Shown: piece by piece, positions 8,214-36,845 of the stretch
Layout: each line of letters opens with the position of its first letter
Position numbering within the stretch: position 1 is the stretch's first letter
Source: Desulfomicrobium baculatum DSM 4028
GTDB lineage: Bacteria; Desulfobacterota; Desulfovibrionia; Desulfovibrionales; Desulfomicrobiaceae
Direction of reading: 5' to 3'
Length of the DNA stretch: 64,000 nucleotides
Assembly (NCBI RefSeq): GCF_000023225.1
Contig: NC_013173.1
Coordinates: 2,544,501 to 2,608,500, forward strand
The notes under the pieces: model-generated
What the model was told of the DNA's origin: nothing
What the model saw: only the letters and a program-made list of their open reading frames with translations
Database searches by the model: none
Position numbers and translations under genes: made by a program

Positions 8214-8290
8214 GCATCCCCGTTCGTCGTTACAGGCCTTCGTGCCGCAGCCGCTGCCGTCATCATCGTCCTGTCCCGCTCCCATACTGC

Positions 8291-9514: not shown

Positions 9515-9578
9515 GGTGCGGTCTCACGTTGAAGTTCGGAATTAAAAGGGCCCGTTACGTCCCCCAGGCCGGTTTCAA

Positions 9579-10766: not shown

Positions 10767-10774
10767 GGGACAAT

Positions 10775-11575: not shown

Positions 11576-11611
11576 TGGTTTTAAGTATCCTTTTAAATTC
11601 AGGTTTCGGAG

Positions 11612-13081: not shown

Positions 13082-13102
13082 GTGTGGCTCCGCTCCTGCG
13101 GC

Positions 13103-13948: not shown

Positions 13949-13950
13949 CT

Positions 13951-15327
13951 CTACCTCCCTTTTCCAAGCAATACGACTTTAAATGTTTTAATAACAATGT
14001 ACAAATCAAGTATTATTGAGATGTTCTTTATGTAATACATATCATAACGAAGCTTCTCAATTGCATCCTCAACGGTTGAACCATACGGATAGAGCACTTG
14101 CGCCCACCCCGTCAGTCCCGGCTTCACATAGTGCCGCTCCGAATAGTATGGGATCATTTCCTTCAGCTCACTCACGAACTCAGGGCGTTCCGGCCTGGGA
14201 CCGACCAGGCTCATGTCGCCTTTGAGGATGTTGATCAGCTGTGGAATCTCGTCCAGGCGGGAACGGCGCAGGAAGTTGCCGAACTTGGTTATGCGCGGAT
14301 CATCCACCTGGGACCAAACGGCTCCGGTCCCTGCTTCGGCGTCTTCGCGCATGGTGCGGAACTTCATGAGCACAAAGGGCCTGTCGCCCCTGCCGACCCT
14401 GACCTGCCGAAACAGCATGGGGCCGGGAGAATCCATTTTGATGGCCAGCGCGATGAACGGCACGAACGGCATAAAACAGATCAGGCCGATACTGGCGGCG
14501 CTCAGGTCAAAGACGCGCTTGCACAGGCGCAGCATCCAGTTCACCTTGAACCCATGACTGAATATGAACCAGCTGGGCGAGATGTTCTCGATGAGCAGCT
14601 TATGCGTCGCGCTTTCATAGAAGGAGGGGGCGTCCACGACCTCGATCCCGGCCATCTTGCAGTTCAAAAGCTCCTCCACCGGGAAAAAGCCCCGCCGTTC
14701 GGCCAGGGCGACCACGACCTTGTCGGCCCCGAAATTCTGGGCCAGGCGCAACAATCTGCCGATCCTGTCAGGAGCCGCTTCATGCCCGGCCTCTTCGTCT
14801 GCCGGGGGAAAAACCGTCGACGTGCAGCTGACTCTGCCCAGCATGACATAACTCTCCCGATTGGCGTGCATGAACTCCTCCATCTGCACGGCCAGAGGAC
14901 CGTCTCCAACGATAAGTACGCGCTTGAGCACTCCCGGGATGACCCTGCGATACTTGGCGAAGAGGTATTCGGCGGACTTGAGCCCGGCAAAGACGCCGAG
15001 CCCCAGCACGACAAGACGGATCTCGCTTCCGAGCATACCCGATGACCTGTCCACGACATAAAGCATCGCCATGGTCAGCGAGGTCGCCACGGCTTGATAA
15101 TACAAGGCCCTCGGCGCCCTCGGTTTACGGCCGGTGAACCAGAAGACCGACCAGACCCCGACCGAGGGCAGGAGGGTAATGGCCAGAACACTGCTGGCAC
15201 CGCGCACGAACTCAAAGTCCCCGGAAAGCGATGCGACGGACGGCGCCAGGATGGCCAGGGACGCACTCAGGGCCAGCAACGCCCAGACGATGTCGTGGGC
15301 AAGATTGCGAAGTATAATTGGAGACAT
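13951..15327 (-). CDS. Polyprenyl-phosphate sugar-1-phosphate transferase (EpsB/WbaP type)
   Basis: A 458-residue initiating glycosyltransferase. The N-terminal half has four to five hydrophobic segments and a nucleotide-binding-like fold (VLIVGDGPLAVQMEEF). The C-terminal half is the bacterial sugar transferase domain: KRVFDLSAASIGL, SPGPMLFRQVRVGRGDRPF, LMKFRTM, RRSRLDEIPQLINIL and GPRPERPEF. It transfers a sugar-1-phosphate from a UDP-sugar to undecaprenyl phosphate, which starts each repeat unit. It directly follows prsT in the operon, the usual position in exosortase-A systems. Confidence 0.93.
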   Translation of the reverse strand: MSPIILRNLAHDIVWALLALSASLAILAPSVASLSGDFEFVRGASSVLAITLLPSVGVWSVFWFTGRKPRAPRALYYQAVATSLTMAMLYVVDRSSGMLGSEIRLVVLGLGVFAGLKSAEYLFAKYRRVIPGVLKRVLIVGDGPLAVQMEEFMHANRESYVMLGRVSCTSTVFPPADEEAGHEAAPDRIGRLLRLAQNFGADKVVVALAERRGFFPVEELLNCKMAGIEVVDAPSFYESATHKLLIENISPSWFIFSHGFKVNWMLRLCKRVFDLSAASIGLICFMPFVPFIALAIKMDSPGPMLFRQVRVGRGDRPFVLMKFRTMREDAEAGTGAVWSQVDDPRITKFGNFLRRSRLDEIPQLINILKGDMSLVGPRPERPEFVSELKEMIPYYSERHYVKPGLTGWAQVLYPYGSTVEDAIEKLRYDMYYIKNISIILDLYIVIKTFKVVLLGKGR

Positions 15328-15336
15328 GCTTCCTCC

Positions 15337-17991: not shown

Positions 17992-18284
17992 TCTTCCTCC
18001 GTCGAACAAGCCTTTTGAAGAGCGGATCGCTCCGTATGCTGAATAATGCGCCGTGGTCCGTCCTGGGCAGTCAATCCCGGGCGAGCCGACCGCGCCCGGA
18101 CGTCAGGCCCCAAGGCAACTCATCCGATGTGCAGGACAGCGCGGCCGCTCATCTTTCAAAGCGCCGCGAACATCACGCTCCGCCCGCCTCGCCGACGCCG
18201 TTGATGTCCTTAGGGATACGCACCCAGGCCGCCTCGTCAGAGGCAGGGCCGACAGACGCTCATCACGCCCGTCGACCCCCCTAG

Positions 18285-18711: not shown

Positions 18712-19506
18712 ATGCATACCCGCACCCTGTTCCCGAAATATTTCCTTTTCTGCTCGATCCTGTTCTGGGGCTTTGCCAACCCGGCGCTTCCGGCCCACGC
18801 CCAGCCTTCGGGCCGGGAACTGGCCCAACTGGTCCATGACCGCTACGTGGGCGACGATTCCGTCTCCCGGCAAACCATGGAGCTCGTTCCGGCCTCGGGA
18901 CAAAAGCGCGTCCGCCAGCTGAACATTTCCGTTCTGGAAAAAAACGACGCTCGATCTACCCTGCTCCGGTTCATATCCCCTGCGGATATCCAGGGCACAG
19001 GCTTTCTGGCCGTCGAGGACGGACAGGGGGAGACGGCCCAATTCCTCTACCTGCCCGCCCTGAACAGAACGCGACGCATCGTGGCAGGTCAGAAGAGCCG
19101 GAGCTTCGTGAACACCGATTTCACTTACGAAGAGATGGAGCGCAGGCCTGTCGACGACTCCGAGCACATCATTGTCGGCGACGAATCACTGAACAGCGTA
19201 CGGTGCTGGATCATGGAAAGCAGGCCCAAAGACGGATCAAATTCCCAGTACACCATGGTCCGAAGCTGGGTGGCGCAGGATATGCTCCTGCCTTTGCGGG
19301 TAGAATTCTTTGCCGGCGGCGAAACCCCGATCAAACGCTACGCCGTGCTCCAGCTGGAAAGCATCCAGAACATCTGGACCGAGACCAAGGTGGCCATGGA
19401 AGACCTCTCGTCCGGTCATAAAACAACCATGGAAACAACGGATATCCAATACAATACAGGGTTATCAGACAGCATATTCACGCAGCAGGCTCTCGAGCGC
19501 TGGTAA
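18712..19506 (+). CDS. LolA-like outer-membrane lipoprotein-sorting protein
   Basis: A 264-residue secreted protein. It begins with a hydrophobic signal (residues 8-30, ending AHA). The mature part has the single-domain LolA/LolB-like half-barrel: the segments VRQLNISVLEKND, STLLRFISPADIQGTGFLAV and FLYLPALNRTRRIVAG are typical of the LolA-like proteins encoded beside RND/MMPL exporters. It probably carries a hydrophobic ligand across the periplasm. It is the first gene of the plus-strand run ending at 27984, which also contains an RND exporter at 23592, so a partner role is likely. Confidence 0.82.
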   Translation: MHTRTLFPKYFLFCSILFWGFANPALPAHAQPSGRELAQLVHDRYVGDDSVSRQTMELVPASGQKRVRQLNISVLEKNDARSTLLRFISPADIQGTGFLAVEDGQGETAQFLYLPALNRTRRIVAGQKSRSFVNTDFTYEEMERRPVDDSEHIIVGDESLNSVRCWIMESRPKDGSNSQYTMVRSWVAQDMLLPLRVEFFAGGETPIKRYAVLQLESIQNIWTETKVAMEDLSSGHKTTMETTDIQYNTGLSDSIFTQQALERW

Positions 19507-19624: not shown

Positions 19625-21499
19625 ATGAAAACTCGACAAAAAAGGCTGCCCTCATCGTGCAGATGGACGCACCGCCAACCTGGACCTGCCTTGCCGCCTC
19701 TCTTGCACGTCATCCTGTTGTTCATCGCGTTCATCTTCCCGATCCCAGCCTTTGCAAACACGCCCGTCCTGGTCTCCGCTTTCGAGCTGAGCCAGGCAGA
19801 TGCGCCGCAAACCCTGACCATCCTTTTGTCCAGAGCACCGCGAAGCGTACGCTCTTTTGTATTGGACGACTCCAATCGGCTGGTGCTCGACATCACCGAG
19901 GCACGGCTTTCAGGCACGGCCACCACTCTGCCCGCGCAGCACCCGTTGATCTTCCGTGTCCGCGCGGCCCAATTCAACCCGACAACCGTGCGTGTGGTCC
20001 TGGACTTGAAAGACGAGGTGACGCACCGCATCGACGCGATCCCCACAAGCACGGAAAACGTCGCCCACAAGATCGTGGTCAGCCTGGCCCCGATGAACCC
20101 GGCAGCGCCACCCCAAAAGTCCGCTCTTCCCACCCCGCCACCGCAAGGCGTCAAGCCCGGCATCCAAAAGGTGCATCCGGCGTATACCGTGGCCCTGGCA
20201 GACACAGACGGCAGCCCCGAGAATAAAACCCTTGTCTTTGGAGAATCCAAAGCCCCAAGCGAGGACCAGGAAGAGCCTTCGCCTTGGGGGCGGCTCAACT
20301 TTTCAGGGTTCCTCCTGGCAAAAATAGCGCAGGAACTGCATGAATCGGGTGATCCCGAGCAGGCGCGAAACTTCCGCAACACGGTCAGGCTCGAAGGAAA
20401 ATGGACTCCGCCGCTGCCCGGCAACGACCCTACGGCCGTCCCCGGCGCATCGAGCACCTTTCTTTTGGCCTCGCTGCAGTCCGACTACCTCTGGTTCGGT
20501 CCCGAACATTCAACGGACGACTATGACCTAGACCTTTACGAAGGCTACATCTCCCACGCCACTCCGGACTGGGACCTGCGCCTGGGCAGACAGATCGTGC
20601 GCTGGGGCAAGACGGACCAGATCAGTCCGGCGGACAACGTCAATCCTCAGGACATGCGGGAATTCTTCGTCCCGGAACTGGAAGACCGCAAGATTCCCAA
20701 CTGGATGGCCAGAATCCGACTGTTCCCCGGCGACATCACGCTGGAAGGCCTCTTCATCCCCTTTTTCGAGGAAAACGAATTCGACTTCTCCGGGACCACC
20801 TGGGCCCTGCTCGGCAATCAGCCGAGCGACCTGAGAATCAGGGAGTCAAAGCCCAGCAAGGGACTGGACGACGCCGATCTGGGCTTGCGCACCTCCGCGT
20901 CCCTGGCGGGATGGGACGTGGCGGCGAGCTACCTGTACGCGACGGAAAAGTCGCCCCGCCTGCGCTTCGACCCGGCCAATCCCGCAGGACCAACCCTGCA
21001 TGCCGACTACCACAGGCAACACATCTGGGCCGTGGAATTCGAAACCACCGCGGACAAATTCGGATTTCGGGGCGAAGGGGCCTATTTCGACAAACAGAGC
21101 CTGCACACAGAGTCCCTCGACTCCGTGGCCAAACCCGTGGCCCATTATGTCTTGGGGGTGGATTATCTGGGCGAGCAGGACTGGTACGCGAACGTGCAGC
21201 TCTCGCACCAGCACGTCTTCGAATACGAGTCCCGGATCCTGTTTCTCCGGCGCGACAATTTTTATTTGAACGGCGAAATCAACCGCGAGTTCTGGCGGGG
21301 AAACGCCATGCTGAAACTGCGCTATGCCCTGGATCTTTACGATGGAGGCTCGTTTCTGACGCCGGAAGCCACCCTTAGCTACTACAAGAACCTCGAACTC
21401 ACGCTGGGCGCAAACGTCTTTTTCGGCCCACAGGATTCCCTGTTTGGCCGCTACCGGGACAACGACCAGGTCTTTTGCAAAGCCAAATACTATTTTTAG
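19625..21499 (+). CDS. AMIN-domain fused to DUF1302-like outer-membrane barrel
   Basis: A 624-residue secreted protein. After a signal peptide (about residues 1-41) comes an AMIN-like beta domain (residues 45-155; VSAFELSQADAPQTLTILLS, RLVLDITEARL, RVVLDLKDEVTHRI), known from AmiC and PilQ for binding peptidoglycan. A Pro-rich linker follows, then from residue 220 a beta-barrel with the DUF1302 signature LRLGRQIVRWGKTDQISPAD and NPQDMREFF; the chain ends in Phe. I infer an outer-membrane channel tethered to the cell wall. A GGGAGA ribosome site lies 9 bases before the ATG. A hairpin terminator follows at 21595. Confidence 0.72.
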   Translation: MKTRQKRLPSSCRWTHRQPGPALPPLLHVILLFIAFIFPIPAFANTPVLVSAFELSQADAPQTLTILLSRAPRSVRSFVLDDSNRLVLDITEARLSGTATTLPAQHPLIFRVRAAQFNPTTVRVVLDLKDEVTHRIDAIPTSTENVAHKIVVSLAPMNPAAPPQKSALPTPPPQGVKPGIQKVHPAYTVALADTDGSPENKTLVFGESKAPSEDQEEPSPWGRLNFSGFLLAKIAQELHESGDPEQARNFRNTVRLEGKWTPPLPGNDPTAVPGASSTFLLASLQSDYLWFGPEHSTDDYDLDLYEGYISHATPDWDLRLGRQIVRWGKTDQISPADNVNPQDMREFFVPELEDRKIPNWMARIRLFPGDITLEGLFIPFFEENEFDFSGTTWALLGNQPSDLRIRESKPSKGLDDADLGLRTSASLAGWDVAASYLYATEKSPRLRFDPANPAGPTLHADYHRQHIWAVEFETTADKFGFRGEGAYFDKQSLHTESLDSVAKPVAHYVLGVDYLGEQDWYANVQLSHQHVFEYESRILFLRRDNFYLNGEINREFWRGNAMLKLRYALDLYDGGSFLTPEATLSYYKNLELTLGANVFFGPQDSLFGRYRDNDQVFCKAKYYF

Positions 21500-21639: not shown

Positions 21640-21677
21640 GCGAGCAACACGCAAAAACACATTTGTCTGGAGATATA

Positions 21678-22544
21678 ATGACACTGACAAGACATAGATG
21701 GCTCAATTTCTCAAACTCAATCACGCGCGAAAATGAATGTTTTCAGCGTGCAGAAGAGATTGATTATCTGTTCAAAGTTGCCGATTCCGCATGCGAGCTA
21801 CTGGAATCCTACCACCTCTTGTATCACGAATATGTAAATGCAGGGTACGCACAAGAGAATAAAAGCGAAATATTATTCACAAAACACCATCTGCATCCCA
21901 AAACAACGGTGCTTTTGGCCAAGTCCGAAAGCACCGTGATATCCACAGCGACACTTGTTCCCGACTCCAATCAGTTCGGTCTGCCCATGGACGACTTGTA
22001 CGGCAAGGAACTGGGGTCGCTACGCAGGCAGCGGCGCAAGGTGGTGGAAGTATGCTCCCTGGCGTCCAGCACGCATAGATTTTCGAGAATCGGCATTCAC
22101 AATTTCACCAGGTTGCTCTTCTTGTATTGCGTATTCCTGGATGTCGACGACGTCTGCGTGATGGTCAATCCGAAACATGTCCCCGTCTACAAGAGGCTCT
22201 GCGACCTGGAACTTTTCGGAGACGAGAAGCACTATCACAGGGTCAACGCCCCGGCCGTGGCGCTTCGCGCGGACGTGGCCGCGGTGCGGGAGCGACTCGG
22301 CAGCAATGGCCTCATGACCTCGTACCGCAACACGCTCGACTCTCAGTACATGTCGCTGCGGATCGCCCTCTGCGAGCGGATCACAGGCATCTTCAAAGGC
22401 GAACACTTTCCACGGTTCCGCCCCAACCCCCTGGACACGGGTCTGATCAACCGCATCCTGTCCGACGTCATCGACGACCTGCAGGATCTGTCCCTGGAAT
22501 GCAAAATCCTGCTCCGGAATTCGTATCCCGGCCTGCAGATCTGA
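21678..22544 (+). CDS. FeeM-type N-acyl amino acid synthase, copy 1 (PEP-CTERM-associated)
   Basis: A 288-residue cytoplasmic GNAT-fold protein. Residues 35-60 contain ELLESYHLLYHEYVNAGYAQ, the substrate-binding region shared by acyl-homoserine-lactone synthase-like and FeeM proteins. Later come TVISTATLVPDSNQFGLPMD, KVVEVCSLAS (the acyl-CoA/ACP-side strand), and DDVCVMVNPKHVPVYKRL, the signature of the N-acyl amino acid synthase family. It should join a long-chain acyl group, probably from acyl-ACP, to an amino acid. The ATG at 21678 follows GGAG by 5-6 bases. A paralogue follows at 22696. Which amino acid is used cannot be told. Confidence 0.72.
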   Translation: MTLTRHRWLNFSNSITRENECFQRAEEIDYLFKVADSACELLESYHLLYHEYVNAGYAQENKSEILFTKHHLHPKTTVLLAKSESTVISTATLVPDSNQFGLPMDDLYGKELGSLRRQRRKVVEVCSLASSTHRFSRIGIHNFTRLLFLYCVFLDVDDVCVMVNPKHVPVYKRLCDLELFGDEKHYHRVNAPAVALRADVAAVRERLGSNGLMTSYRNTLDSQYMSLRIALCERITGIFKGEHFPRFRPNPLDTGLINRILSDVIDDLQDLSLECKILLRNSYPGLQI

Positions 22545-22695: not shown

Positions 22696-23595
22696 ATGAC
22701 CGATCTCTCCGAAAATACGCGCCAGGATCGCCGAAGATCCGTCAGACTTCGCCGTTCCGCCATGCTGAGGGCCAAGCTGGATGAAATAGACCGACCGAAC
22801 ATCAAAATTGCGGAAGCCCGCGATGAGTGGGCTCAGTCCTTCGCCCTCGTCTACAGGGAGTACCTTGCCTCGGGATACATCGCGGAGCCGCACCCTTCGG
22901 GGATGCATTTAAGCGCCTACAATCTCCTGCCGGCGACGTGCGTCTTCATTTTCAGGACCTATGTCACGGTCATATCCACCCTGACCCAGATATTCGACAG
23001 CGAACTCTTCGGCTTGCCCATGGACGCTCTGTATCGGCCAGAGCTTGATGCGTTGCGTTCCCAGGGCAGAAAGATCACCGAGCTTTCGGCCTTGGCAACG
23101 CCCAGGGAGACACGCTGGTGCAATCTCATGGTCTTCCTGTCAAAAACGATGTTTGAATATTCGATGATGAACAACATTGACGACATATGCATCATGGTCA
23201 ACCCGAAGCATGTCAATTTTTACAAGACAATGTTCCTGTTCGAAGACTTCGGAGAAGAGCGTTTTTACCCGGGAGTTGGCGCTCCGGCAGTCGCCTTGCG
23301 CATCAACATGGAGCATATCGAAGACAAGGCGTCGGAAAAATACAAGGATTATGACGTGGATGACAATATCCATGAATTCTTCTACAAAATGAAAAGCACC
23401 TTGGTGGAATTGAACAACGGGTGGACGTTCTATGACAAAAGGCCCCCCATGAGCGAAGAGGACGCGCGGTTCTTTTTCAACACCCGGCAGGAACTCTGCG
23501 AAAAGCTGTCCCCGCGCCAAATGGAGCATCTGACGCGGCTCTATCCCTTCCTCAAAAGCATCCCCGCATCCACCATGCGCACGGATCATCCATGA
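22696..23595 (+). CDS. FeeM-type N-acyl amino acid synthase, copy 2
   Basis: A 299-residue paralogue of the preceding gene. It shares the same landmarks: FALVYREYLASGYIAE, TVISTLTQIFDSELFGLPMD, KITELSALATP, and DDICIMVNPKHVNFYKTM. The C-terminal 80 residues, beginning around KYKDYDVDDNI, differ and are charged. A GGAG ribosome site lies 6 bases before the ATG, and its stop overlaps the RND exporter start (ATGA), so the two are translationally coupled. Two diverged synthases next to each other suggest two acyl-amino-acid substrates or one inactive regulatory copy; the sequence does not decide. Confidence 0.7.
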   Translation: MTDLSENTRQDRRRSVRLRRSAMLRAKLDEIDRPNIKIAEARDEWAQSFALVYREYLASGYIAEPHPSGMHLSAYNLLPATCVFIFRTYVTVISTLTQIFDSELFGLPMDALYRPELDALRSQGRKITELSALATPRETRWCNLMVFLSKTMFEYSMMNNIDDICIMVNPKHVNFYKTMFLFEDFGEERFYPGVGAPAVALRINMEHIEDKASEKYKDYDVDDNIHEFFYKMKSTLVELNNGWTFYDKRPPMSEEDARFFFNTRQELCEKLSPRQMEHLTRLYPFLKSIPASTMRTDHP

Positions 23596-25859
23596 AGCAC
23601 CTCGCCAGCCTGGTCACCCGCTTCCCCATACTCTGCCTCGTGCTGTCCCTGTGCCTGGCCGCCCCGTTCCTGATCCAGCTTCCCCGCATCCAGACCGTGG
23701 ACAATGTGGATTATTTCACCGTCGAGGACGATCCGGACGTCGCCTTTTACCAAAGCATCAAGGACACCTTCGGAGAAGACGAATTCTTCGTGATCGCCTT
23801 TTCAAATCCTGAACTTTTCACGCCCCCCATCTTGCGCATGATCGCGGCCATCACGCAGGAACTCGAAACCATCCCCGAAGTCCGGGAAGTACAAAGCCTG
23901 GCCAATGTGGACTACATCCACGGCGAAGAGGAATATTTCGAAGTCCGCCCCTTCCTGGAGCGCATTCCGGAAGATGCTCCGGGACTGGCCGTCCTGCGGA
24001 AGCAGGCGCTGGGCAACCCGCTGTATGTCGGCAACCTCGTCTCCGCCGACGGGGAGACCACTGCCCTGGTGGTCTTTCCCACAGCGCACGAGGCAGGGGA
24101 CGGAAGCTTTCGCAAGAGGCTCATCGAACAGACCGAAACGGTGCTCGCCAAACATGAAGCGCTCGCCGGCCGGTTTCACCTGGCCGGCTGGACCATGACC
24201 AACTTCAGCCTCAGCCAGTACATGAAGTCGGATGTGGCCGTGTTCATTCCGGTGACCTACCTGTTCATCACCCTGACCATCTGGCTCTTTTTCCGCAACG
24301 TGCGTCTGACCCTGCTGGCCCTGGCCAACATCTCCATGTGCACGGGGGCGACCATGGGTCTCTTCCCCCTGCTCGGCATCACGCTGAACAACGTGACCAC
24401 CGTTGTACCGCCCCTGGTCATGGCCCTGGCTCTGGCCGATTCCGTACACATTTTCGCCCATCTGGATAAAAAACTGCTGGATGATGCCCCATCACCCGCC
24501 AAGGCCATGGAGAGCATCCTGCATCGGGTCATAACCCCCTGCTTTCTGACCAGCCTGACTACGGCCGTGGGCTTCATCTCCCTTGTCGTGAGCGACATTC
24601 CGCCGATCAAGGAATTTGGATACGTGGCTTCGGCGGGCATGATCTTCGAATTTCTGTTCTCCTTCCTGCTGCTGCCGCCGCTCATGCTCATGTGCAGGCC
24701 CGACGCCATATACACACACCAGCGCAAGGACATCGGCATGGGCGCCTTTCTGGGCCGCCTCTCCACGTTGGTGCAGACCCACGCCCGCCCCATAACCATC
24801 TTCATCGCGTTCCTGACCCTGGGCGCTTTGTGGGCGGCCTCGACGATCCGGGTCGAGACCAACCTGCTGGAGTACTTCAAGCCTTCAAGTCCCCTGCGCC
24901 AGGAGCTTTCCTACATCGAACCCCGCCTGAGCGGGGTCGGCACGGTGGACATTTCCGTCAAAGCCGGGGAGCGGGATGCCTTGCGCGACCCGGACAAGCT
25001 GGCCGTGATCGACAGGCTGCAAACCTTCGCCCTGACCCTGCCGGGCGTCGACCGAACCATGTCCTTCGTGGACTTTTTGAAAGACATGAACATGTCCTTT
25101 CACAACGAGGATCCGGATTTCTACGTCATCCCCGTAAGCCGGGAACTGGTGTCCCAGTATCTGCTGCTCTACGACTCCGACGACATGGATGAATTCATCA
25201 CCCCGGAATACGATCAGGCCCGCATCCTGATCCGCATCTCCGAGCACAGCTCCGCAGGCCAGGCCGAACTCATTGACTCCCTGCGCGCCTTCATCGACCA
25301 GCACGAACACGATGGCCTGCAAATCCGGGTCACCGGCCGGGCCGTACAGGACGTGAACACCATCGACGCCCTGGTCCAGGGACAGGTGGAAAGTCTGGCC
25401 CTGGCCGCCGCCGTGATCACGTTCATCATGTTCCTGGCCCTGCGCTCGCTTGTCACAGGGGCCTTAAGCCTGATCCCTAATGCATTTCCGATCATTCTCA
25501 ACTTCGGGATCATGGGCCTGCTCGGCATCCCCCTGAACACCTCCACGGCCCTGATCTCCGTGGTAGCCTTGGGCATCGCCGTGGACGACACCATCCATTT
25601 CTTGACCGAGTACAATCGAAAACGCGCCGAGAACCTGCCCATGCGGGAGGCTCTTCAACAATCCATCCTGGAAAAGGGTACGGCCATTACCGCCTCGTCG
25701 CTGATCCTGGTCATCGGCTTCGGCGTGCTTCTTTTCAGCAGCTTCGTGCCTACCATGAGCTTCGGGGGCTTAAGCGCCGTGATCATGATCACGGCCTTGA
25801 TAGGCGACCTGATCGTTCTGCCGGCGGCCATGCTTTCCTTTGACGGCAAGAGCGCGTGA
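23592..25859 (+). CDS. RND-superfamily exporter (MMPL/HpnN-like)
   Basis: A 755-residue inner-membrane transporter with two repeats, each one helix, a periplasmic domain of about 170-200 residues and a bundle of five helices. Helices are visible near residues 10-30, 215-360, 400-420 and 600-750. Functional motifs include ALALADSVHIFAHLDK in the first half and LGIAVDDTIHFLTEYNRKRA in the second, where the Asp residues are the proton-relay positions of MMPL-type RND proteins. It is likely to move a lipidic product out of the inner membrane, handing it to the LolA-like protein at 18712. It is coupled to the upstream synthase by ATGA overlap. Confidence 0.88.
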   Translation: MKHLASLVTRFPILCLVLSLCLAAPFLIQLPRIQTVDNVDYFTVEDDPDVAFYQSIKDTFGEDEFFVIAFSNPELFTPPILRMIAAITQELETIPEVREVQSLANVDYIHGEEEYFEVRPFLERIPEDAPGLAVLRKQALGNPLYVGNLVSADGETTALVVFPTAHEAGDGSFRKRLIEQTETVLAKHEALAGRFHLAGWTMTNFSLSQYMKSDVAVFIPVTYLFITLTIWLFFRNVRLTLLALANISMCTGATMGLFPLLGITLNNVTTVVPPLVMALALADSVHIFAHLDKKLLDDAPSPAKAMESILHRVITPCFLTSLTTAVGFISLVVSDIPPIKEFGYVASAGMIFEFLFSFLLLPPLMLMCRPDAIYTHQRKDIGMGAFLGRLSTLVQTHARPITIFIAFLTLGALWAASTIRVETNLLEYFKPSSPLRQELSYIEPRLSGVGTVDISVKAGERDALRDPDKLAVIDRLQTFALTLPGVDRTMSFVDFLKDMNMSFHNEDPDFYVIPVSRELVSQYLLLYDSDDMDEFITPEYDQARILIRISEHSSAGQAELIDSLRAFIDQHEHDGLQIRVTGRAVQDVNTIDALVQGQVESLALAAAVITFIMFLALRSLVTGALSLIPNAFPIILNFGIMGLLGIPLNTSTALISVVALGIAVDDTIHFLTEYNRKRAENLPMREALQQSILEKGTAITASSLILVIGFGVLLFSSFVPTMSFGGLSAVIMITALIGDLIVLPAAMLSFDGKSA

Positions 25860-25944: not shown

Positions 25945-27984
25945 ATGAAACGAGATGAACACCTGGCAACGCTACAGACCCTGGGCATTTCCAGCGCGGC
26001 GGCATACCGCGAAGCCGCCTTTTCCCGCAACATCGGGCTGTTTTCGCCGGGCGAGCAGGAGCGGCTGGCCGAGGCCAGGGTCGCGATTCCGGGTATGGGC
26101 GGAGTGGGCGGAGTACATTTGATCAATCTTGTACGCACCGGAATCGGCCGCTTCCATCTGGCCGACTTCGACCAGTTTGAGCCGGTCAACGTGAACCGCC
26201 AGTTCGGGGCCAAGGTTCCTTCCTTCGGTCGCCCCAAGCTTGCGGTCATGATCGAAGAGGCGCACAGCATCAACCCGTTCCTGGATATCACCCCCTATCC
26301 CGCAGGGCTGACTGCGGACAACATGGAAGCCTTTCTGACGGATGTGGACGTGGTCCTGGACGGACTGGATTTCTTCCAGTTCGAAATCAGGCGGACGCTC
26401 TTCAACATGGCCCGGTCCATGGGCGTGCCCGTGATCACGGCCGGGCCGCTGGGATACAGCTCGGCCCTGCTGGTCTTCACCCCGCAAGGCATGGGCTTTG
26501 ACGACTATTTCGATGTGGGCGGAAAACTGCCGGAAGAGCAGAAATACCTGCGCTTCGCCATGGGGCTGGCCCCCAGACCGACACATATCGGATACATGGA
26601 CCTGTCACGCGTGGACCTCAAGGGCGGCAAAGGCCCGTCCCTGAACATCGCCTGCCAACTGTGCTCGTCTCTTGCCGCCACCGAGGCCGTGCGCATCATT
26701 CTTGGCAAGCCTGGGCTCAGGCCCGCGCCCTGCTTCCTGCAGTTCGACCCCTTCCGCCAGGTGCTCCGCAAAGGACGCCTGAGCCGGGGCAATCGCACCT
26801 TCAGCCAGCGCGCCAAACTCTGGTACGTGCAAAACGTGCTGATCAAGGCTACCGACCAGGCTCGGGTGCGCATACCGGACCCACCTGTTGTAAGCGTCGC
26901 ACATTTCGATTCCCTGCCCCAGGGTGTCGGCACCTATCTGCTGCAGGCCGCAGTTCAAGCTCCTTCCGGGGATAATGTCCAACCCTGGCAGTTCCGTCTG
27001 GCAGGCAACGACATCCACGTTTTTCTGGATCCGGAAGCCGACGTGTCCTTTTTCAATGTCCGCCAGACCGCCTCCATCATCGCCTGCGGGGCAGCAATGG
27101 AAAACATCCGCCTGGCCGCCACAACCATGGGCATGGATGCGACCACGCAAATCCGGCCGGATGCCGCGCAAGAAAATCTGCTGGCCACCGTGCGCATTCA
27201 GCCAGGCGATCACACAGCAGACCCGCTGGCCCGGCACATCTGGACGCGCTGCACCAACCGCCGCCCGTACAGCAAGCGGCCTCTGCCGGAGTGGGTGCAC
27301 AACGACCTCAAAACCCGCATCCGCAGCATGCCCGAAGCGCACCTCCACCTTTTGACCGGCCGCGCTCAACTCCGCAAGCTTGCCAAGGTCATCTACCTGG
27401 CCGACAGGATCCGCACCGAGCATCAGGGCTTGCACGAGCATTTCACATCCATGATCCGCTTCAACATGAAGGAGGCCGAGCAGCGACGCGATGGGCTGCC
27501 TCTCAAAAACCTGGAAGCCGGATTGGCGGGGGAGGCATTCCTGCGCCTGACCAAGCCGTGGCCCGCAATGCGTGTCGCCAACGGCATCGGCCTCGGCCGT
27601 TTGGTGGCCTTGCACTCGGCCCAGGGCATCCTGGAGAGCGGAGCTGCCGGGATGGTTGTGGTCGATGGGTTCGAAACACGGGATTTTATGCTCGGAGGCC
27701 AGGCCTTGCAGCGCATCTGGCTGGCAATGGAGCACCATGGCCTGCAAATGCAGCCCATGACCGCCGTGACCCTCTTCTGGCTGCGCTGGCTGTGGGAAGG
27801 GCCGTCAAGTTTTTCCGAAAAACACCGCAAATTACTGGAACGGGTCTGGCAGGATTTGAAAGGGTTGTTCGCTTCCGTTGATTTTGAAAAGCAAGGTCTG
27901 GTCATGCTCTTTCGCGCAGGCTACGGCCCCGGAATCCGTCACCGCACCTTGCGGCGGGGTGCTGGCGACTTTCTGATGAAATAA
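25945..27984 (+). CDS. ThiF/E1-like adenylyltransferase fused to a nitroreductase
   Basis: A 679-residue two-domain protein. Residues 1-290 form an E1/ThiF-like domain: the ATP-binding glycine loop GMGGVGGVHLINLVRTGIG, the Asp motif LADFDQFEPVNVNRQFG, and DVVLDGLDFF. A single Cys pair (ACQLC) occurs near residue 237 instead of the two CxxC pairs of zinc-binding E1 enzymes. Residues 325-660 form an FMN nitroreductase-like domain with VQAPSGDNVQPWQF and later GLGRLVALHSAQGILESGA. The fusion family is of unknown function. Its place after the acyl synthases and exporter suggests it adenylates or oxidises the acyl-amino-acid product; that is inference. Confidence 0.78.
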   Translation: MKRDEHLATLQTLGISSAAAYREAAFSRNIGLFSPGEQERLAEARVAIPGMGGVGGVHLINLVRTGIGRFHLADFDQFEPVNVNRQFGAKVPSFGRPKLAVMIEEAHSINPFLDITPYPAGLTADNMEAFLTDVDVVLDGLDFFQFEIRRTLFNMARSMGVPVITAGPLGYSSALLVFTPQGMGFDDYFDVGGKLPEEQKYLRFAMGLAPRPTHIGYMDLSRVDLKGGKGPSLNIACQLCSSLAATEAVRIILGKPGLRPAPCFLQFDPFRQVLRKGRLSRGNRTFSQRAKLWYVQNVLIKATDQARVRIPDPPVVSVAHFDSLPQGVGTYLLQAAVQAPSGDNVQPWQFRLAGNDIHVFLDPEADVSFFNVRQTASIIACGAAMENIRLAATTMGMDATTQIRPDAAQENLLATVRIQPGDHTADPLARHIWTRCTNRRPYSKRPLPEWVHNDLKTRIRSMPEAHLHLLTGRAQLRKLAKVIYLADRIRTEHQGLHEHFTSMIRFNMKEAEQRRDGLPLKNLEAGLAGEAFLRLTKPWPAMRVANGIGLGRLVALHSAQGILESGAAGMVVVDGFETRDFMLGGQALQRIWLAMEHHGLQMQPMTAVTLFWLRWLWEGPSSFSEKHRKLLERVWQDLKGLFASVDFEKQGLVMLFRAGYGPGIRHRTLRRGAGDFLMK

Positions 27985-28026: not shown

Positions 28027-28060
28027 TGGCCGGGAAGCATGCGCTTCCCGGCCTTCATTT
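28027..28060. terminator. Convergent hairpin terminator
   Basis: An 11-bp perfect stem (GGCCGGGAAGC / GCTTCCCGGCC) with a 4-nt loop, at 28028-28053. On the minus strand it is followed by ATTTTTC, so it mainly ends the PEP-CTERM gene, and it can also stop transcripts from 27984. Confidence 0.85.
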
Positions 28061-28076
28061 GACGAGATCAATCTGA

Positions 28077-28868
28077 TCAGTTCTTCTTGTTGCGACGTAC
28101 CGCTATGCCAAGGCCGAGCAGGCCGGCACCGAGAAGAAGCATGGTGGCAGGTTCGGGAACAGGCGAGGCCATGATGCTCAGGTTGAACTGAGCCGAGTTG
28201 TCGCCGTCTTCACTTGCAAGCCAGCCAAAATACTCTGTGTCAATTCCCAACTTGCCGACAATGAAATCATGATAAGCGCCAGTGATGAGCCCGAAACCAT
28301 CGCTATTGAAAGCAAAGTCATACTTATAGCCGTCATAGTTGAACGTGCCCTCGGTCAGACCTGGGTCGATGAGGATAAAGATATCCATTGGCGTCACATC
28401 ATCATTCGGAGTTTCAAAGAACAAAAACTCCAGAAAGGCGGTGTCGATAGGCTGTTGCGGTCCAGCAGGAACAAAAGGCGTAAACTGAATGGTAGCCGCA
28501 ACCTTTCCATATGCAAGGGTTGGATACAGGGAAGAAAGAACGTGGTTATAATGTGTAATTGAAGTAACAGGTACCGCAGGTCCTAACTCCAGCCAGCCAG
28601 TCATCAGGTCATCACCGCTGACAGGAGCGAAAAGCTCAAGCGAGCTTTGAAGCCCGGTTTCACTGAAGTCGGACGGAACGCCCCAATACAGGGTATTCAA
28701 ATCCGCGCTTACGCTCATTTCGTCCTGGTTGCCTTCATCGTTAAGCCAATCAACGAAATTCGCGTCATTGGTATACGACCACTGAGTCACCAAGGCAGCG
28801 GAGGCGAATGTCGCCGAGAAAAGAAACGCCACAGCCAAAAGACATGTTACAACGAAATTCTTCCTCAT
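28077..28868 (-). CDS. PEP-CTERM surface protein, THxN family (copy 1)
   Basis: A 263-residue exported protein. A signal peptide (residues 1-24, ending ASA) is followed by a beta-rich domain containing the family motif SITHYN (Thr-His-x-Asn). The C-terminus is the sorting signal: VPEPATMLLLGAGLLGLGIAV, then RRNKKN. An exosortase is expected to cleave at the PEP box and attach or release the protein at the envelope. It is a clear paralogue of 31650-32429. A sigma-54 promoter lies 48-63 bp upstream and the shared enhancer element about 95 bp before the predicted start; GGAGG precedes the ATG by 6 bases. Confidence 0.92.
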   Translation of the reverse strand: MRKNFVVTCLLAVAFLFSATFASAALVTQWSYTNDANFVDWLNDEGNQDEMSVSADLNTLYWGVPSDFSETGLQSSLELFAPVSGDDLMTGWLELGPAVPVTSITHYNHVLSSLYPTLAYGKVAATIQFTPFVPAGPQQPIDTAFLEFLFFETPNDDVTPMDIFILIDPGLTEGTFNYDGYKYDFAFNSDGFGLITGAYHDFIVGKLGIDTEYFGWLASEDGDNSAQFNLSIMASPVPEPATMLLLGAGLLGLGIAVRRNKKN

Positions 28869-30404: not shown

Positions 30405-31091
30405 ATGAACGACAACGCCTGGCCGCGCATATTGCCTTTTGCCCTCTTCATGGCCGTCATCGGTCTAGAGGAAGGATTGCGTTTCATGGATGACAAAGCC
30501 TGGGTCAGCATCCAGGACTCCACCTTCGCCCTGCTTTATCCGCTGAGACCCCTGGTTGCCGGCATCGCACTCATCCTGTGCCGCCGGGCCTACACGGAAC
30601 TGCGGTGGTCCGACCTGGCCCGGAGCAGCCAGACAGTGATGAGTATCGCGCTGGGGCTTGTGGTCTTTGCGCTGTGGGTCAACATGGACTGGACTATCGG
30701 CGCGCTGAGCGAGCCGCCGGGCTTCAATCCGGGCATCTTTCCGGACCCCGGCCTGCGCCGGGTCATGACCGTCATCCGCATCGGCAGCGCCGTGCTCGTT
30801 GTCCCGATCATGGAGGAAATCTTCTGGCGTTCCTTCATTCTGCGCTACGTCATCAATCCGGATTTCGCCAAAGTCCCGCTCGGTACGTTCACCTGGATTT
30901 CGTTTCTGGTCGGAGCCGTGCTCTTCGGCTTGGCCCACCATTTCATCCTAGCCGGAATCATGGCCGGCATGGCCTATTCCTGGTTGCTCTACAGAACCAG
31001 GAGTCTGGCGCAATGCGTCCTGTCCCACGCAGTGACCAATCTGGCCCTGGCCGCCTTTGTGCTGAACACGGAAAAATGGTGGTTTTGGTAA
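30405..31091 (+). CDS. Exosortase-associated CAAX-type membrane protease (CPBP family)
   Basis: A 228-residue integral membrane protein with about seven helices. The CPBP/Abi signature is complete: EEIFWRSFILRY (Glu-Glu-x3-Arg, residues 138-149), FGLAHHFILAG with the metal His near residue 177, and HAVTNLALAAF near residue 208. This version is the CAAX-protease-related family that co-occurs with PEP-CTERM/exosortase systems, where it is either alone or fused to an exosortase. It sits between two PEP-CTERM gene groups, which supports a role in processing sorted proteins. No clear ribosome site precedes the ATG, so the start is less certain. Confidence 0.8.
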   Translation: MNDNAWPRILPFALFMAVIGLEEGLRFMDDKAWVSIQDSTFALLYPLRPLVAGIALILCRRAYTELRWSDLARSSQTVMSIALGLVVFALWVNMDWTIGALSEPPGFNPGIFPDPGLRRVMTVIRIGSAVLVVPIMEEIFWRSFILRYVINPDFAKVPLGTFTWISFLVGAVLFGLAHHFILAGIMAGMAYSWLLYRTRSLAQCVLSHAVTNLALAAFVLNTEKWWFW

Positions 31092-31649: not shown

Positions 31650-32429
31650 TCAATTCTTCTTGTTGCGTCGCGCCGCCAAGCCCAGGCCAAGCAGGCCGGC
31701 GCCGAGAAGAAGCATGGTGGCCGGCTCGGGGACAGGAGCCACCGAGATACCCAGGTAGAACTGAGCCGACGTGCTGCCGTCCTCGTTTGCAAGCCAGCCG
31801 TAATAGTCTGTGTCCACACCGAGCTGACTGACAATGTAATCATGATACGCGCCAGTGAGGAGTCCGAAGCCGTCGCTCAAGAAAGAGAAGTTGTATGTGT
31901 AGCCATCGTAGTTAAATGCGCCGCTGGTTGCGCCCGGATCGGTGAGAACGAAGATATCCATGGGCGTCGCGACATTACTGTTTGGAGTCTCGAAGAACAG
32001 AAACTCAAGATAAGTTGTTTCGGCAGGAAGAGGCAGTCCCGCAGGCAAAAATGGCGTAAACTCAACATTAGCCTCGACCTTACCATACGCAAGATTAGGA
32101 AATGCTGAACTCATCAAGTAATTGAAGTGTGTAATTGACACTACCTCTACAGCGGATCCCGAAGTCATCAGATCGTTTCCAGCGACAGGCCCGTCGATCA
32201 CAAGCGAACTTTGCAGTCCTGTTTTAGAGAAAACGGATGGCACTCCCCAGGACAACGTTCTGCCGTCGGGGCTTAGCACCATATAATCCTGATTAACGTC
32301 TTCGTTGCTCCAATCGACAAAAGTAGCATCGTTGACATACGACCACTGTGTCACCAGAGCTGCGGAAGCAAATGTTGCTGAAAAGATGAATGCCGCCGCC
32401 AGACATGTCGCTGCTAGTTTTTTCTTCAC
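31650..32429 (-). CDS. PEP-CTERM surface protein, THxN family (copy 2)
   Basis: A 259-residue exported protein, clearly paralogous to 28077-28868 over its whole length. Shared stretches include AALVTQWSY, SDGFGL-TGAYHD and the sorting signal VPEPATMLLLGAGLLGLGLAA followed by RRNKKN. The motif SITHFN is the Thr-His-x-Asn family mark. Translation starts at GTG (32429), with GGAG 9 bases upstream. It has the best sigma-54 promoter of the set and the shared enhancer element. The two copies flank the CAAX-type protease and the unrelated PEP-CTERM gene. Confidence 0.92.
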   Translation of the reverse strand: MKKKLAATCLAAAFIFSATFASAALVTQWSYVNDATFVDWSNEDVNQDYMVLSPDGRTLSWGVPSVFSKTGLQSSLVIDGPVAGNDLMTSGSAVEVVSITHFNYLMSSAFPNLAYGKVEANVEFTPFLPAGLPLPAETTYLEFLFFETPNSNVATPMDIFVLTDPGATSGAFNYDGYTYNFSFLSDGFGLLTGAYHDYIVSQLGVDTDYYGWLANEDGSTSAQFYLGISVAPVPEPATMLLLGAGLLGLGLAARRNKKN

Positions 32430-33687: not shown

Positions 33688-35358
33688 TTACGAGGGATTT
33701 CTTTGAGAAGCGAGTGCCGCGAAGGCTTCGGTGGCCATTGGCCGACCGAGGTAGTATCCTTGTCCTTCGGCACAGTGATGTTTTTTGAAGAAGGCATGCT
33801 GCGTCTGCGTTTCAATGCCTTCGGCCACGATTTGATGATTAAAGCCCCGCGCCATCGCCAGCAGGGCGGAGGCCACCGCCTTTCCTGATTTGGCCTCGAT
33901 GTTGTGCACGAACGACTTGTCGATCTTGACCGTACCGATCGGAAATTCCCGTAAAAAACTCAAACTCGCATACCCTGTGCCGAAGTTATCCACGGCAATC
34001 TGCACTCCAAGGTTCTTGAGCGCATGCAAGGCAGGCAGAGCCTGTTGCGCATCCCGCGACAGGCCGTTCTCGCTCATTTCAATCTGCAGAAAATGCGGAT
34101 CCAGTCCCGTCTCGCGCAGGATGGCACGAACTCCAGTCAAAAAATTCTTGTCCCTGAATTCAACCGCCGAGACATTGACCGCGATCCGGCTCAGGTTGAA
34201 GCCCGTCTGCAGCCACGCCTGCGCCTGCCTGCAGGACTCACGGATCACCCACTGCCCAATCGGCAGAATGAGCCCGCAGCTCTCGGCAATGGTGAGGAAC
34301 TGAGCCGGGAAGTTGAGCTGATGATCGGAACGCTCCCAGCGCAGCAGAACCTCGGCGCCGGTGATGACGCCGGTCTCCAGATTCACCGTCGGTTGGTAGT
34401 GCAGGATGAATTCGCCGTGGTCGAGAGCGCGCTTCAGAGCCATCTCGGCGGACTTGCGCATGGCTGAACTGGAACTCGGGTTCATGCTCGGGGTGAATAT
34501 CTTGTAGCTGTTGCGACCGGCCTTTTTGGCCTGATACATCGCCATGTCCGCCTTGCGCATCAGCGCTTCGGCGTCGACACCGTCATCCGGATACATGCTG
34601 ATGCCGACGCTCAAGGTGACGCGGAGCTCTTGTCCGGAAATGAAATGGGGCTCTCCCACGCTGTGAATCAGTTTCTCAGCGGCGTGGGCGGCGCTCTGCA
34701 CATCCTCGACTTCCGGAAGCAGGACCACGAATTCGTCACCGCCGTGACGGCTGACCGTATCCGAATTACGGACGCTGGCCTGCAGACGCTTTGCAACGGA
34801 TTGCAGCAACTGATCGCCAATCCCATGCCCCAGGGAGTCGTTGATATGCTTGAAGTGGTCGAGGTCCAGAAACATCAGCGCCACTTTGTTGCCGTGGCGC
34901 TTTGCGAGCAGGATCGACTGCACCAGACGGTCGGTCAAAAGCGCCCGGTTCGGCAATCCGGTGAGCAGATCATGCTCGGCCATGTAGGACAAATGAACCG
35001 AGACCCGCTCGACCGCCTCGGTCATCATATGCGCATTGACCGAGGCGACGACGAGTTTCTCGTTTGCTTCCCGGAGCGTAGTTTCCATTTCCGAACAGGA
35101 ATCGATCTTGACCTTTTCGGCATTTTTGCGCACCCGCAACGCCTTCTTGACCACCTTCAAAACTTCTTCTTGCCTGTCGGAAAGCGCCTCGTCATGAGTG
35201 CCTGTTCTTGCTTCTCGCACGGTCTTTTCGCCAGCCTCGTGTTTGCTTCCCGGAAGCGTTTGCAGGGCCTTAAAACTCGACGGCAAGGTGTACGCACGCC
35301 TCCTGAGCGGTCGTTTGGACGTATAACGCCTGTACATCAAACCAATTTTGTTCAGCAT
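33688..35358 (-). CDS. GGDEF-EAL c-di-GMP turnover protein
   Basis: A 556-residue protein. The N-terminal 115 residues are basic then helical, without a recognised sensor or membrane helix. The diguanylate cyclase domain (about 125-290) has the intact signature RHGGDEF at residues 204-210. The phosphodiesterase domain (about 300-550) has EVL instead of EAL (336-338), keeps NVS and KIDKSFV, but reads VDNFGTGYASL where active enzymes have DDFGTGYSSL, so one metal-binding Asp is Asn at residue 458. Its hydrolase activity may be reduced or lost. Its ATG lies inside the end of the KaiC-like gene, a 7-bp overlap, so the two are one unit. Confidence 0.88.
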   Translation of the reverse strand: MLNKIGLMYRRYTSKRPLRRRAYTLPSSFKALQTLPGSKHEAGEKTVREARTGTHDEALSDRQEEVLKVVKKALRVRKNAEKVKIDSCSEMETTLREANEKLVVASVNAHMMTEAVERVSVHLSYMAEHDLLTGLPNRALLTDRLVQSILLAKRHGNKVALMFLDLDHFKHINDSLGHGIGDQLLQSVAKRLQASVRNSDTVSRHGGDEFVVLLPEVEDVQSAAHAAEKLIHSVGEPHFISGQELRVTLSVGISMYPDDGVDAEALMRKADMAMYQAKKAGRNSYKIFTPSMNPSSSSAMRKSAEMALKRALDHGEFILHYQPTVNLETGVITGAEVLLRWERSDHQLNFPAQFLTIAESCGLILPIGQWVIRESCRQAQAWLQTGFNLSRIAVNVSAVEFRDKNFLTGVRAILRETGLDPHFLQIEMSENGLSRDAQQALPALHALKNLGVQIAVDNFGTGYASLSFLREFPIGTVKIDKSFVHNIEAKSGKAVASALLAMARGFNHQIVAEGIETQTQHAFFKKHHCAEGQGYYLGRPMATEAFAALASQRNPS

Positions 35359-36845
35359 CGTCGGTCCTGATCATTCGCGGCCAAAGCCGTAGTCAACGTC
35401 GGGCTTCCACTCATAATCCCGCTATATTCGGACAAAGTCTCGCCGATGACAATGCCGCCATCGTTGATCTCAAATTCCCGCAGCGCATTGCTGTGGGCGC
35501 TGGCGCGGACCTTGACGACCGCCATGACCCGCTTCAGGCGGCTCTTAACCTCTATGTAGCGCTGCACGATAATGGCGTCGGTGAGAAATGCGGACCCGTA
35601 GGGGCTGAAACGCAGATCCGTGAACCTGTCTTCAAGTTCCGAAGTCATGAGCACCGTCACCCCGAGATTGGACAGCGCGGCGATCATGCGAAACAGCGAC
35701 TCCCGAAAATCCTCGCGAAAGGTCGGGGCCACGGCGAGCTCGAATCCGGACAGCGAATCGATCACCACACGTGTCGCTTTCATGCTGTGAATGAGGTTTA
35801 TGAGATGCTGAATGACCTCGTCCATGGACAGATCGAGGGAACGGGTATTGATCAGACCAATGCTCCCGGCCCGGACCAGTTCGTCGATGGTGCGCGTTCG
35901 GGACTGGCTCGGAGTCTGCTCAAAGGCGACAATCACGCCTGGCTCGCCCAGCCGCACCCCCTCCACCAGAAAGGCCGTGGCCAGGATGGTCTTGCCAGAA
36001 CCGGACGGTCCGGCGACAAGAAGCGAATAGCCGGACGGCAACCCCCCGCCCATCATCTCATCAAGACGCGGCACGCCCATGGACAGACGCTTTTCCGTGG
36101 AATCCGTGCGGCGGGGCGTGGCCGCGAGGTTGCCGTCATCACGAACCTCCACCGCAGGGAAGACGACGATCCCGTCGCCCGTGATGCGGAACGTATGCAC
36201 CCCGGGGCGGGTGGCCTGGCCGCGCATTTTCATGATCTGAATCTTGCGCACCATGGAGTTCCGATAAACGCTCTGTTCAAGCGATATGAGCCCGTCGGCC
36301 ATGGTGAAAATCGGCGGTGGACCTGTCTTTGAAGAATATTCACCAATCAGAAAGGTTGTTGTCTCCCATCCCATGAGTTGCATACCCAGCTGCTGGATGA
36401 ATTGCTGCTGGCTGATCGATCCGTCGGACTGACGCTGCGCCTCCAGCATGATCGAGCGGAACGAATCGACGAAGACCAGCGCCGGAGCGGTGGTCTCGAC
36501 CTCATGCGTGATCCGCTTCAAAACCTCGGTAAATGTCCCCGTGGCGACGTCATCGCCCAGGCTGACGAAGCGAATCGCCCCGCTGATCTTGTCCTGATCG
36601 AAAAACGAAAACTGCTGCTGGTAACGGAGCATCTTCATGGGCGATTCGCCGAGCACGGTAAAAAAGAGCGCAGGCCGCTCACGTGTCGCCATGGCGAACA
36701 TGAGCTGATGCGCAAGCGTGGTCTTGCCGCAGCCCGGAGCCCCCAAAATGAGATTGAACGAGAGATCCGGGATCCCGCCGCCAAGGATCGCATCAAGCCC
36801 GGGAACGCCGGTGGCGAGGCGGGCTATGCTAACTTTTCGGTTCAT
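35352..36845 (-). CDS. KaiC-like double-domain ATPase
   Basis: A 497-residue protein with two RecA-like KaiC domains. Walker A motifs are GAPGCGKT (residues 35-42) and GPSGSGKT (279-286); Walker B-like strands are ALVFVDSF and RVVIDSLSG. In non-cyanobacterial species such proteins are signalling ATPases rather than clocks and often sit beside two-component or c-di-GMP genes. Here it overlaps a GGDEF/EAL gene at its 3' end and a small gene at its 5' end (ATGA). No histidine kinase is seen next to it. Confidence 0.9.
   Translation of the reverse strand: MNRKVSIARLATGVPGLDAILGGGIPDLSFNLILGAPGCGKTTLAHQLMFAMATRERPALFFTVLGESPMKMLRYQQQFSFFDQDKISGAIRFVSLGDDVATGTFTEVLKRITHEVETTAPALVFVDSFRSIMLEAQRQSDGSISQQQFIQQLGMQLMGWETTTFLIGEYSSKTGPPPIFTMADGLISLEQSVYRNSMVRKIQIMKMRGQATRPGVHTFRITGDGIVVFPAVEVRDDGNLAATPRRTDSTEKRLSMGVPRLDEMMGGGLPSGYSLLVAGPSGSGKTILATAFLVEGVRLGEPGVIVAFEQTPSQSRTRTIDELVRAGSIGLINTRSLDLSMDEVIQHLINLIHSMKATRVVIDSLSGFELAVAPTFREDFRESLFRMIAALSNLGVTVLMTSELEDRFTDLRFSPYGSAFLTDAIIVQRYIEVKSRLKRVMAVVKVRASAHSNALREFEINDGGIVIGETLSEYSGIMSGSPTLTTALAANDQDRRC

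Follow-up and report, generated by a model that had tools for sequence, protein, structure and literature searches.

Acyl-oxazolones are formed by ATP-dependent cyclization and FMN/O2-dependent desaturation in the systems described for OxzB, for TyzB together with TyzC, and for TrzS (PMC10404671, PMC12856293). TrzS is reported as a ThiF-FMN fusion that first cyclizes an N-acyl amino acid with ATP and then desaturates it with O2, and under limited O2 it accumulates the cyclized, non-oxidized intermediate (PMC12856293). For the purified M. smegmatis enzyme, the same report assigns D217 to cyclization and R540 and Q651 to the flavin step; it describes products that hydrolyze readily in acid, with the oxazolone seen after a gentle quench, and it calls the physiological role of oxazolones a major unresolved question. 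OxzB (de Rond 2021) is reported in PMC10404671 to have the same architecture and to carry out cyclization and desaturation, and TyzB and TyzC to perform cyclization and oxidation as separate proteins. According to that source ThiF-FMN fusions are numerous, and its two flavin-oxidase subclusters, of 14,445 and 623 sequences, both consist predominantly of longer proteins that are predicted fusions. Loci that combine synthase, ThiF and nitroreductase genes are tied in PMC12479983 to N-acyl dehydrotyrosines, with no oxazolone observed in the account given there.

The gene run and the fusion protein

The window is the whole stretch of Desulfomicrobium baculatum DSM 4028 DNA that was analyzed (64,000 nucleotides). 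The features that bear on the fusion gene are the following.

6292–18009, − strand: XrtA/PEP-CTERM exopolysaccharide locus (profile matches)
18712–19506, + strand: LolA-like outer membrane lipoprotein-sorting protein, at the start of the run (Pfam LolA_like, 198 bits)
19625–21499, + strand: AMIN and DUF1302 protein, probable outer-membrane barrel (DUF1302 73 bits, AMIN 41 bits)
21663–22544, + strand: FeeM1, second FeeM-family N-acyl amino acid synthase (Pfam FeeM 147 bits; NF011425 123 bits)
22696–23595, + strand: FeeM2, FeeM-family N-acyl amino acid synthase, likely substrate supplier (Pfam FeeM 162 bits; NF011425 292 bits)
23592–25859, + strand: MMPL/RND-type transporter, overlapping FeeM2 by 4 bp (Pfam MMPL 109 bits; HAE3 below cut-off)
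25945–27984, + strand: ThiF-nitroreductase (FMN) fusion, 679 aa, proposed oxazolone synthetase (cyclase-desaturase) (ORF list, profiles, model)
26020–26778, + strand: ThiF/E1 adenylating domain, residues 26–278 (Pfam PF00899, residue table, ThiF alignment)
26092–26112, + strand: GMGGVGG glycine loop of the ThiF domain, residues 50–56
26653–26664, + strand: single CxxC, C237–C240, in a helix, lacking in the aligned Rv1355c-family relatives (model, residue table)
26902–27981, + strand: Acg-type FMN nitroreductase/flavin-dependent oxidase domain, residues 320–679 (Acg 2YMV structure and sequence)
26962–26988, + strand: PSGDNVQPW of the FMN domain, residues 340–348
28028–28053, no strand: GC-rich hairpin of 11 pairs (9 G-C), probable terminator, separating the fusion gene from the convergent PEP-CTERM gene
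28077–28868, − strand: THxN-family PEP-CTERM protein, convergent neighbor of the fusion (NF038125, 190 bits)

The fusion gene is one uninterrupted 679-residue ORF with exact coordinates, and it is the last of six + strand genes separated, in order, by 118, 163, 151, −4 and 85 bp; we infer that the six form one transcript. The hairpin behind it heads a list of 17 terminator-like sites (mean in shuffled sequences, 13.2). The sigma-54 pattern TGGCAC-N5-TTGC, with at most one mismatch, occurs 5 times in the window, where chance would give 6.4, and nowhere before the run, so sigma-54 control was dropped; a sigma-70 scan gave 2 sites compared with 4.0 in shuffled sequences. The transporter reaches 207 bits with NCBIfam HAE3, below the cut-off of 352. 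The XrtA/PEP-CTERM locus encodes FemAB-like, deacetylase, outer-membrane, ATPase, chain-length, export, glycosyltransferase and PrsT proteins.

A second PEP-CTERM protein (31650–32429, − strand) resembles the convergent neighbor, as judged by eye from its translation, and a CAAX-type (Rce1-like) membrane protease gene (30405–31091, + strand) lies near the PEP-CTERM genes; a CAAX protease-related gene is also found near the N. vulgaris plasmid cluster described below. Farther along, a GGDEF/EAL-looking protein adjoins a KaiC-like ATPase-looking protein (33688–35358 and 35352–36845, − strand, by eye). The mycobacterial trzAS locus is also reported beside predicted cyclic di-GMP genes (PMC12856293), and a GGDEF gene occurs near two Rhodococcus plasmid copies of the Rv1355c type.

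The preliminary description read the protein as an E1-like domain fused to an FMN nitroreductase-like domain, and both profiles and predicted structure bear this out within the single ORF. Pfam ThiF (PF00899) matches residues 26–278 with 154 bits, and Pfam Nitroreductase (PF00881) matches the short stretch 324–353 with 36.4 bits (cut-off 23.5). The AlphaFold2 model, built from a 50-row alignment, has a mean pLDDT of 92.2 and consists of a ThiF-type N-terminal half and an Acg-type C-terminal half. ThiF, MoeB and AclA are structural matches to residues of about 17–285 (E1/ThiF domain, about 18–285), with Z about 26–27; Acg (2YMV) matches residues 320–679 with a Z of 33.5 and an rmsd of 2.4 over 301 residues, and it also matches the FMN half in sequence (E 1.5e-12). 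FMN binding by the C-terminal domain is thus predicted from its fold and residues.

NCBIfam NF011424 (PRK14851), the fusion's own family, covers residues 1–678 with 1301 bits, above the cut-off of 1170; PRK14851 and PRK14852 are both named only 'hypothetical protein', with no function assigned. The Acg FMN family profile NF047509 matches residues 332–609 with 168 bits, below its cut-off of 199. The Rv1355c family profile NF005901, which represents TrzS proper, gives 279.7 bits against an NCBIfam cut-off of 476 (as separate matches, 211 bits for the FMN half and 66 bits for the ThiF half), which indicates that the fusion is not TrzS itself; it stands outside the TrzS family proper while its working parts are the same.

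The fusion shares with TrzS, the tryptazolone synthase of mycobacteria and Rhodococcus (Rv1355c family), the order of a ThiF domain followed by an Acg-like FMN oxidase domain, an adjoining acyltransferase gene in the species studied, and residues of the D217/R540/Q651 type. In contrast, TrzS acts on short-chain acyl-Trp, and four TrzS-type plasmid relatives are 23–26% identical to the fusion, with a GL-SVG glycine loop, about 60 more N-terminal residues and no CxxC; none of these four copies has a LolA, DUF1302 or MMPL gene annotated within 5 kb. OxzB of Pseudoalteromonas rubra, compared by description only, is likewise a ThiF-nitroreductase fusion paired with an N-acyltransferase (OxzA), but its products are tyrazolones and phenazolones. 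TyzA, TyzB and TyzC of M. tuberculosis (PMC10404671) supply an acyltransferase, a ThiF cyclase and an FMN oxidase with an mmpL gene nearby; the cyclase and oxidase are separate proteins, and the order of their steps is not obligate (PMC12856293). The stieleriacine, thalassotalic acid and kyonggic acid loci also keep synthase, ThiF and nitroreductase genes together, and the Stieleria maiorica cluster is reported to contain a PEP-CTERM gene (PMC7293339), whereas their ThiF and nitroreductase are separate and their products are dehydrotyrosines, with no oxazolone seen in PMC12479983.

Active-site residues and the single CxxC

The fusion was aligned with eight relatives, four of the Rv1355c family encoded on actinobacterial plasmids and four that are closer to it. 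All nine rows share R28, D74, D76, N82, N84, R85, K98 and D142 in the ThiF half, and N344, Q346, P347, W348, R435, R439, R488, R490, P604, R657 and R670 in the flavin half; Q603 is kept in seven and is H in two Rhodococcus plasmid rows. We take the conserved ThiF-half residues to be ATP-site residues on the basis of the ThiF alignment, of D217 in the TrzS work and, in part, of general background on these enzymes. D142 corresponds to TrzS D217, R490 or R488 of the ADRIR motif to R540, and Q603 to Q651 by numbering offset only (13–15, against a Mycolicibacterium relative in place of an alignment of TrzS itself). In the 50-row set, which is rich in sulfate reducers and comprises the window protein and 49 of the 50 ThiF-nitroreductase ORFs found below (L080 left out) with zero triple fusions, N344, Q346, R435, R439, P604, R657 and R670, among others, are invariant; R490 and Q603 are present in at least 90% of rows and R488 in fewer. 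The loss of FMN-binding residues, which had been named in advance as evidence against the proposed chemistry, was not observed, and the tested ATP- and flavin-site residues are retained.

Zinc-binding ThiF/MoeB E1 proteins carry two CxxC pairs. The fusion has exactly one (C237–C240), as the preliminary description had noted in setting it apart from such proteins; the other cysteines are at 263, 381 and 436. The motif lies within the helix of residues 234–253 in the predicted model and is present in at least 90% of the 50-row set, and the two positions are V and G in all four Rv1355c-family relatives. This substitution, together with the helical position, argues against the CxxC as half of a family-wide zinc site, and that assignment was rejected.

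Linkage to FeeM-family synthases and distribution

A scan of named genomes retained 80 of 162 confirmed relatives; the search started from aligned fusions of the Desulfobacterota type, toward which the mix of taxa leans. The 80 loci comprise 50 ThiF-nitroreductase fusions, 18 ThiF genes with the nitroreductase as the next gene, 4 FeeM-ThiF-nitroreductase triple fusions, 1 FeeM-ThiF fusion, 6 ThiF genes alone and 1 locus without a ThiF ORF, with ORF starts set mechanically at the longest frame. A FeeM-like gene or domain occurs in 55 of the 80; of the 39 loci flanked by 6 kb or more on each side, 33 have one. It is absent from 25 of the 80, 6 of them among the 39. Since the FeeM profile was iterated, drift was checked with Pfam FeeM, which matched 48 of the 51 FeeM-like ORFs checked. 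In 18 loci the gene immediately upstream, in the same orientation, is a separate FeeM-like gene (gap −20 to 108 bp), with a 4-bp overlap in 4 of these loci. The 39 well-flanked loci also contain LolA-like (14), MMPL (13), DUF1302 (13) and PrsT (15) genes. Neighborhoods that never include acyl synthases had been proposed as grounds for abandoning the acyl-amino-acid reading; instead, acyl synthases recur.

Four named loci related to the unfused ThiF genes described below (L074, L083, L087 and L105) have LolA-like and DUF1302 genes immediately upstream. In two Methylomonas loci (L076 and L078), FeeM-like genes are about 3.9 kb from the ThiF and nitroreductase genes. Beside another ThiF-nitroreductase fusion (L053:2511–3671, + strand) is a FeeM synthase with a C-terminal cyclic nucleotide-binding domain, which suggests an N-acyl amino acid synthase under cyclic-nucleotide control; cNMP_binding was matched by 5 of the 51 FeeM-like ORFs.

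The profile PRK14852 (NF011425) spans FeeM, ThiF and nitroreductase parts, and FeeM2 matches its N-terminal part (profile positions 5–276 of 989). The N. vulgaris DP4 plasmid pDVUL01 carries a 989-aa gene of this kind (L128:11107–14076), surrounded by XrtA and PEP-CTERM genes. It is annotated as a ThiF family adenylyltransferase and is read here as a triple fusion; its first 300 residues are taken as the synthase part from the alignment with the fusion, as the profile implies. For D. vulgaris, PMC3333781 reports a PEP-CTERM gene regulator on pDV1 and three-fold less biofilm in the plasmid-free strain.

Neither window synthase emerged as the sole partner across loci. The two window proteins were aligned with 49 of the FeeM-like ORFs, of which 72 are listed in the named loci; 8 adjacent synthases are nearer FeeM2, 6 are nearer FeeM1 and 7 are undecided, and the fused synthases divide into 1, 0 and 4, respectively; those nearer FeeM2 include L055, L056, L060 and L065 (adjacent) and L070 (fused). 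The host genome (one contig, 3,942,657 bases) has two FeeM matches above the cut-off, both in this run, and 1 of 14 control genomes has a match. Three neighbor proteins of plasmid Rv1355c-family copies (L129, L131 and L132) gave no FeeM match and are of no help to the acyltransferase link there. The oxazolone reading is supported by the FeeM link, which is seen in 33 of 39 and 55 of 80 loci, in the triple fusions and in the placement of both FeeM genes of the genome within the run.

The recurrent synthase also bears on two other roles that the N-terminal fold might suggest. The ThiF fold and ATP motifs would suit ordinary ThiF/MoeB-type activation of sulfur-carrier proteins, presumably the type labeled 'MoeY' in annotations, with a nitroreductase unrelated to acyl amino acids. 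Such a sulfur-carrier or molybdopterin role is disfavored and very unlikely: the genome has other ThiF-type genes, one of which (L004, among the three of four scanned for this role) scores 222 bits against the ThiS adenylyltransferase cut-off of 159, and in relatives of the fusion the linkage and fusion partner is FeeM. MccB and PaaA also match the model (Z about 23–24), which is compatible with a peptide-modifying E1 acting on a small precursor peptide; with FeeM as the recurring and sometimes fused partner, this role is just as improbable.

The fusion gene is patchily distributed. Among 395 genomes of the phylum, including the host, matches reach E 1e-40 or better in 23, 6 of which have both domains in one ORF, and none was found in the 16 listed 'same order' genomes. 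This patchiness and the presence on plasmids suggest horizontal spread. 'Desulf' appears in the record title of 37 of the 80 named loci, a share biased upwards by the query built from sulfate-reducer-type fusions. In a ThiF-domain tree made with a quick method (77 of the 80 named loci after 3 with a missing or short ThiF domain were dropped, the window protein, and 4 plasmid rows, L132 excluded), the window protein groups with sulfate-reducer fusions, and the Rv1355c type is a far outgroup on a branch of 3.99. Fused and unfused forms alternate: the well-supported branches require 6 or more changes, and 28 of the 79 inner branches are weak. Unfused ThiF genes 49–62% identical to the ThiF domain here occur in other genomes of the phylum (L009 and L016–L024), four of them (L020–L023) close to a nitroreductase-domain ORF.

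Proposed reaction and oxygen dependence

By analogy with the described enzymes, the fusion protein is probably a bifunctional oxazolone synthetase that acts on an N-acyl amino acid. FeeM2, and perhaps FeeM1, would attach a fatty acyl chain to what is probably an aromatic amino acid. The ThiF domain would bind Mg-ATP and adenylate the carboxyl group, and attack of the amide oxygen on the acyl-AMP would give a five-membered 5(4H)-oxazolone. The FMN domain would then take two hydrogens from the C-alpha/C-beta bond to yield a conjugated acyl-oxazolone, which may hydrolyze to an N-acyl dehydro-amino acid. Passage of the product across the envelope would fall to the LolA-like, DUF1302 and MMPL proteins. 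The architecture, predicted fold, conserved sites, neighborhood and triple fusions are observed for the fusion, and the order of steps and the dependence on ATP and O2 are established for TrzS; from these we infer the same activity, the substrate, the export and a reoxidation of FMN in an anaerobe. Ring formation and dehydrogenation of an activated N-acyl amino acid, as first suggested from the sequence, find support in homology (TrzS and OxzB architecture, FeeM linkage and kept sites), and the idea is already in print. Counting against it are the distance from the TrzS-type relatives and their different glycine loop, the 25 of 80 loci without FeeM, the O2 need and the stieleriacine-type producers without oxazolone. 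A limited literature look found no enzyme assay for this protein's clade, and one literature collection returned no publication joining the words oxazolone, Desulfo and N-acyl amino acid.

Most of these steps would be shared if the ring were transient and hydrolyzed, and the true end product were an open-chain N-acyl 2,3-dehydro-amino acid like the thalassotalic acids, kyonggic acids and stieleriacines. This outcome, which differs in the final product, is possible but the less probable one. It agrees with the dehydrotyrosine products, without oxazolone, reported for synthase, ThiF and nitroreductase loci (PMC12479983), with the acid lability reported for TrzS products and with the 18 of 80 loci in which the nitroreductase is the next gene after ThiF. 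However, the oxazolone of TrzS is visible on a gentle quench, and its absence elsewhere could be an artefact of extraction.

The oxazolone synthetase reading meets a puzzle in the host. The hosts of TrzS and OxzB are aerobic. PMC3035215 describes D. baculatum as strictly anaerobic, and a desaturation that depends on O2 is out of place in such a host unless some other electron acceptor takes over. The genome does encode cytochrome bd subunit I (594 bits), so the host may meet O2. The strong conservation of the flavin-half residues in a set rich in sulfate reducers points to a flavin step that is probably used and under selection there; either another electron acceptor serves or the step runs only when O2 arrives.

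Alternatively, only the cyclase works in the anaerobe: a saturated, reactive acyl-oxazolone (azlactone) would acylate an acceptor such as an envelope component, and the flavin domain would be idle or used only on O2 exposure. The strictly anaerobic description of the host, the non-oxidized intermediate that TrzS is reported to pile up at limited O2 and the exopolysaccharide/PEP-CTERM locus beside the genes are consistent with this possibility, which is nevertheless unlikely, since the invariant flavin-half residues indicate a selected step for which another acceptor could serve.

Rather speculatively, the enzyme in sulfate reducers could be an oxygen-gated chemical switch. Without O2 it would stop at the saturated, short-lived azlactone, which would hydrolyze or acylate an envelope partner; with O2 the FMN domain would produce the stable conjugated oxazolone, to be exported by the MMPL, LolA-like and DUF1302 proteins. 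The exported oxazolone would alter exopolysaccharide or PEP-CTERM surface output. An alternative to such a switch, no less interesting, would be that the enzyme is the first oxazolone desaturase to work without O2, by using another electron acceptor.

The kind of enzyme is already known; what makes this case interesting is its anaerobic setting, together with the triple fusions and the envelope genes that recur nearby. The analysis offers a probable function for PRK14851 and PRK14852. It would place acyl-oxazolone-type chemistry in anaerobic sulfate reducers and link that chemistry to N-acyl amino acid synthases, a possible lipid-export module and an exosortase/exopolysaccharide locus. The O2 need of the known enzymes, set against an anaerobic host, poses a sharp and testable question, and the role that oxazolones play in physiology would gain a recurring genetic context.
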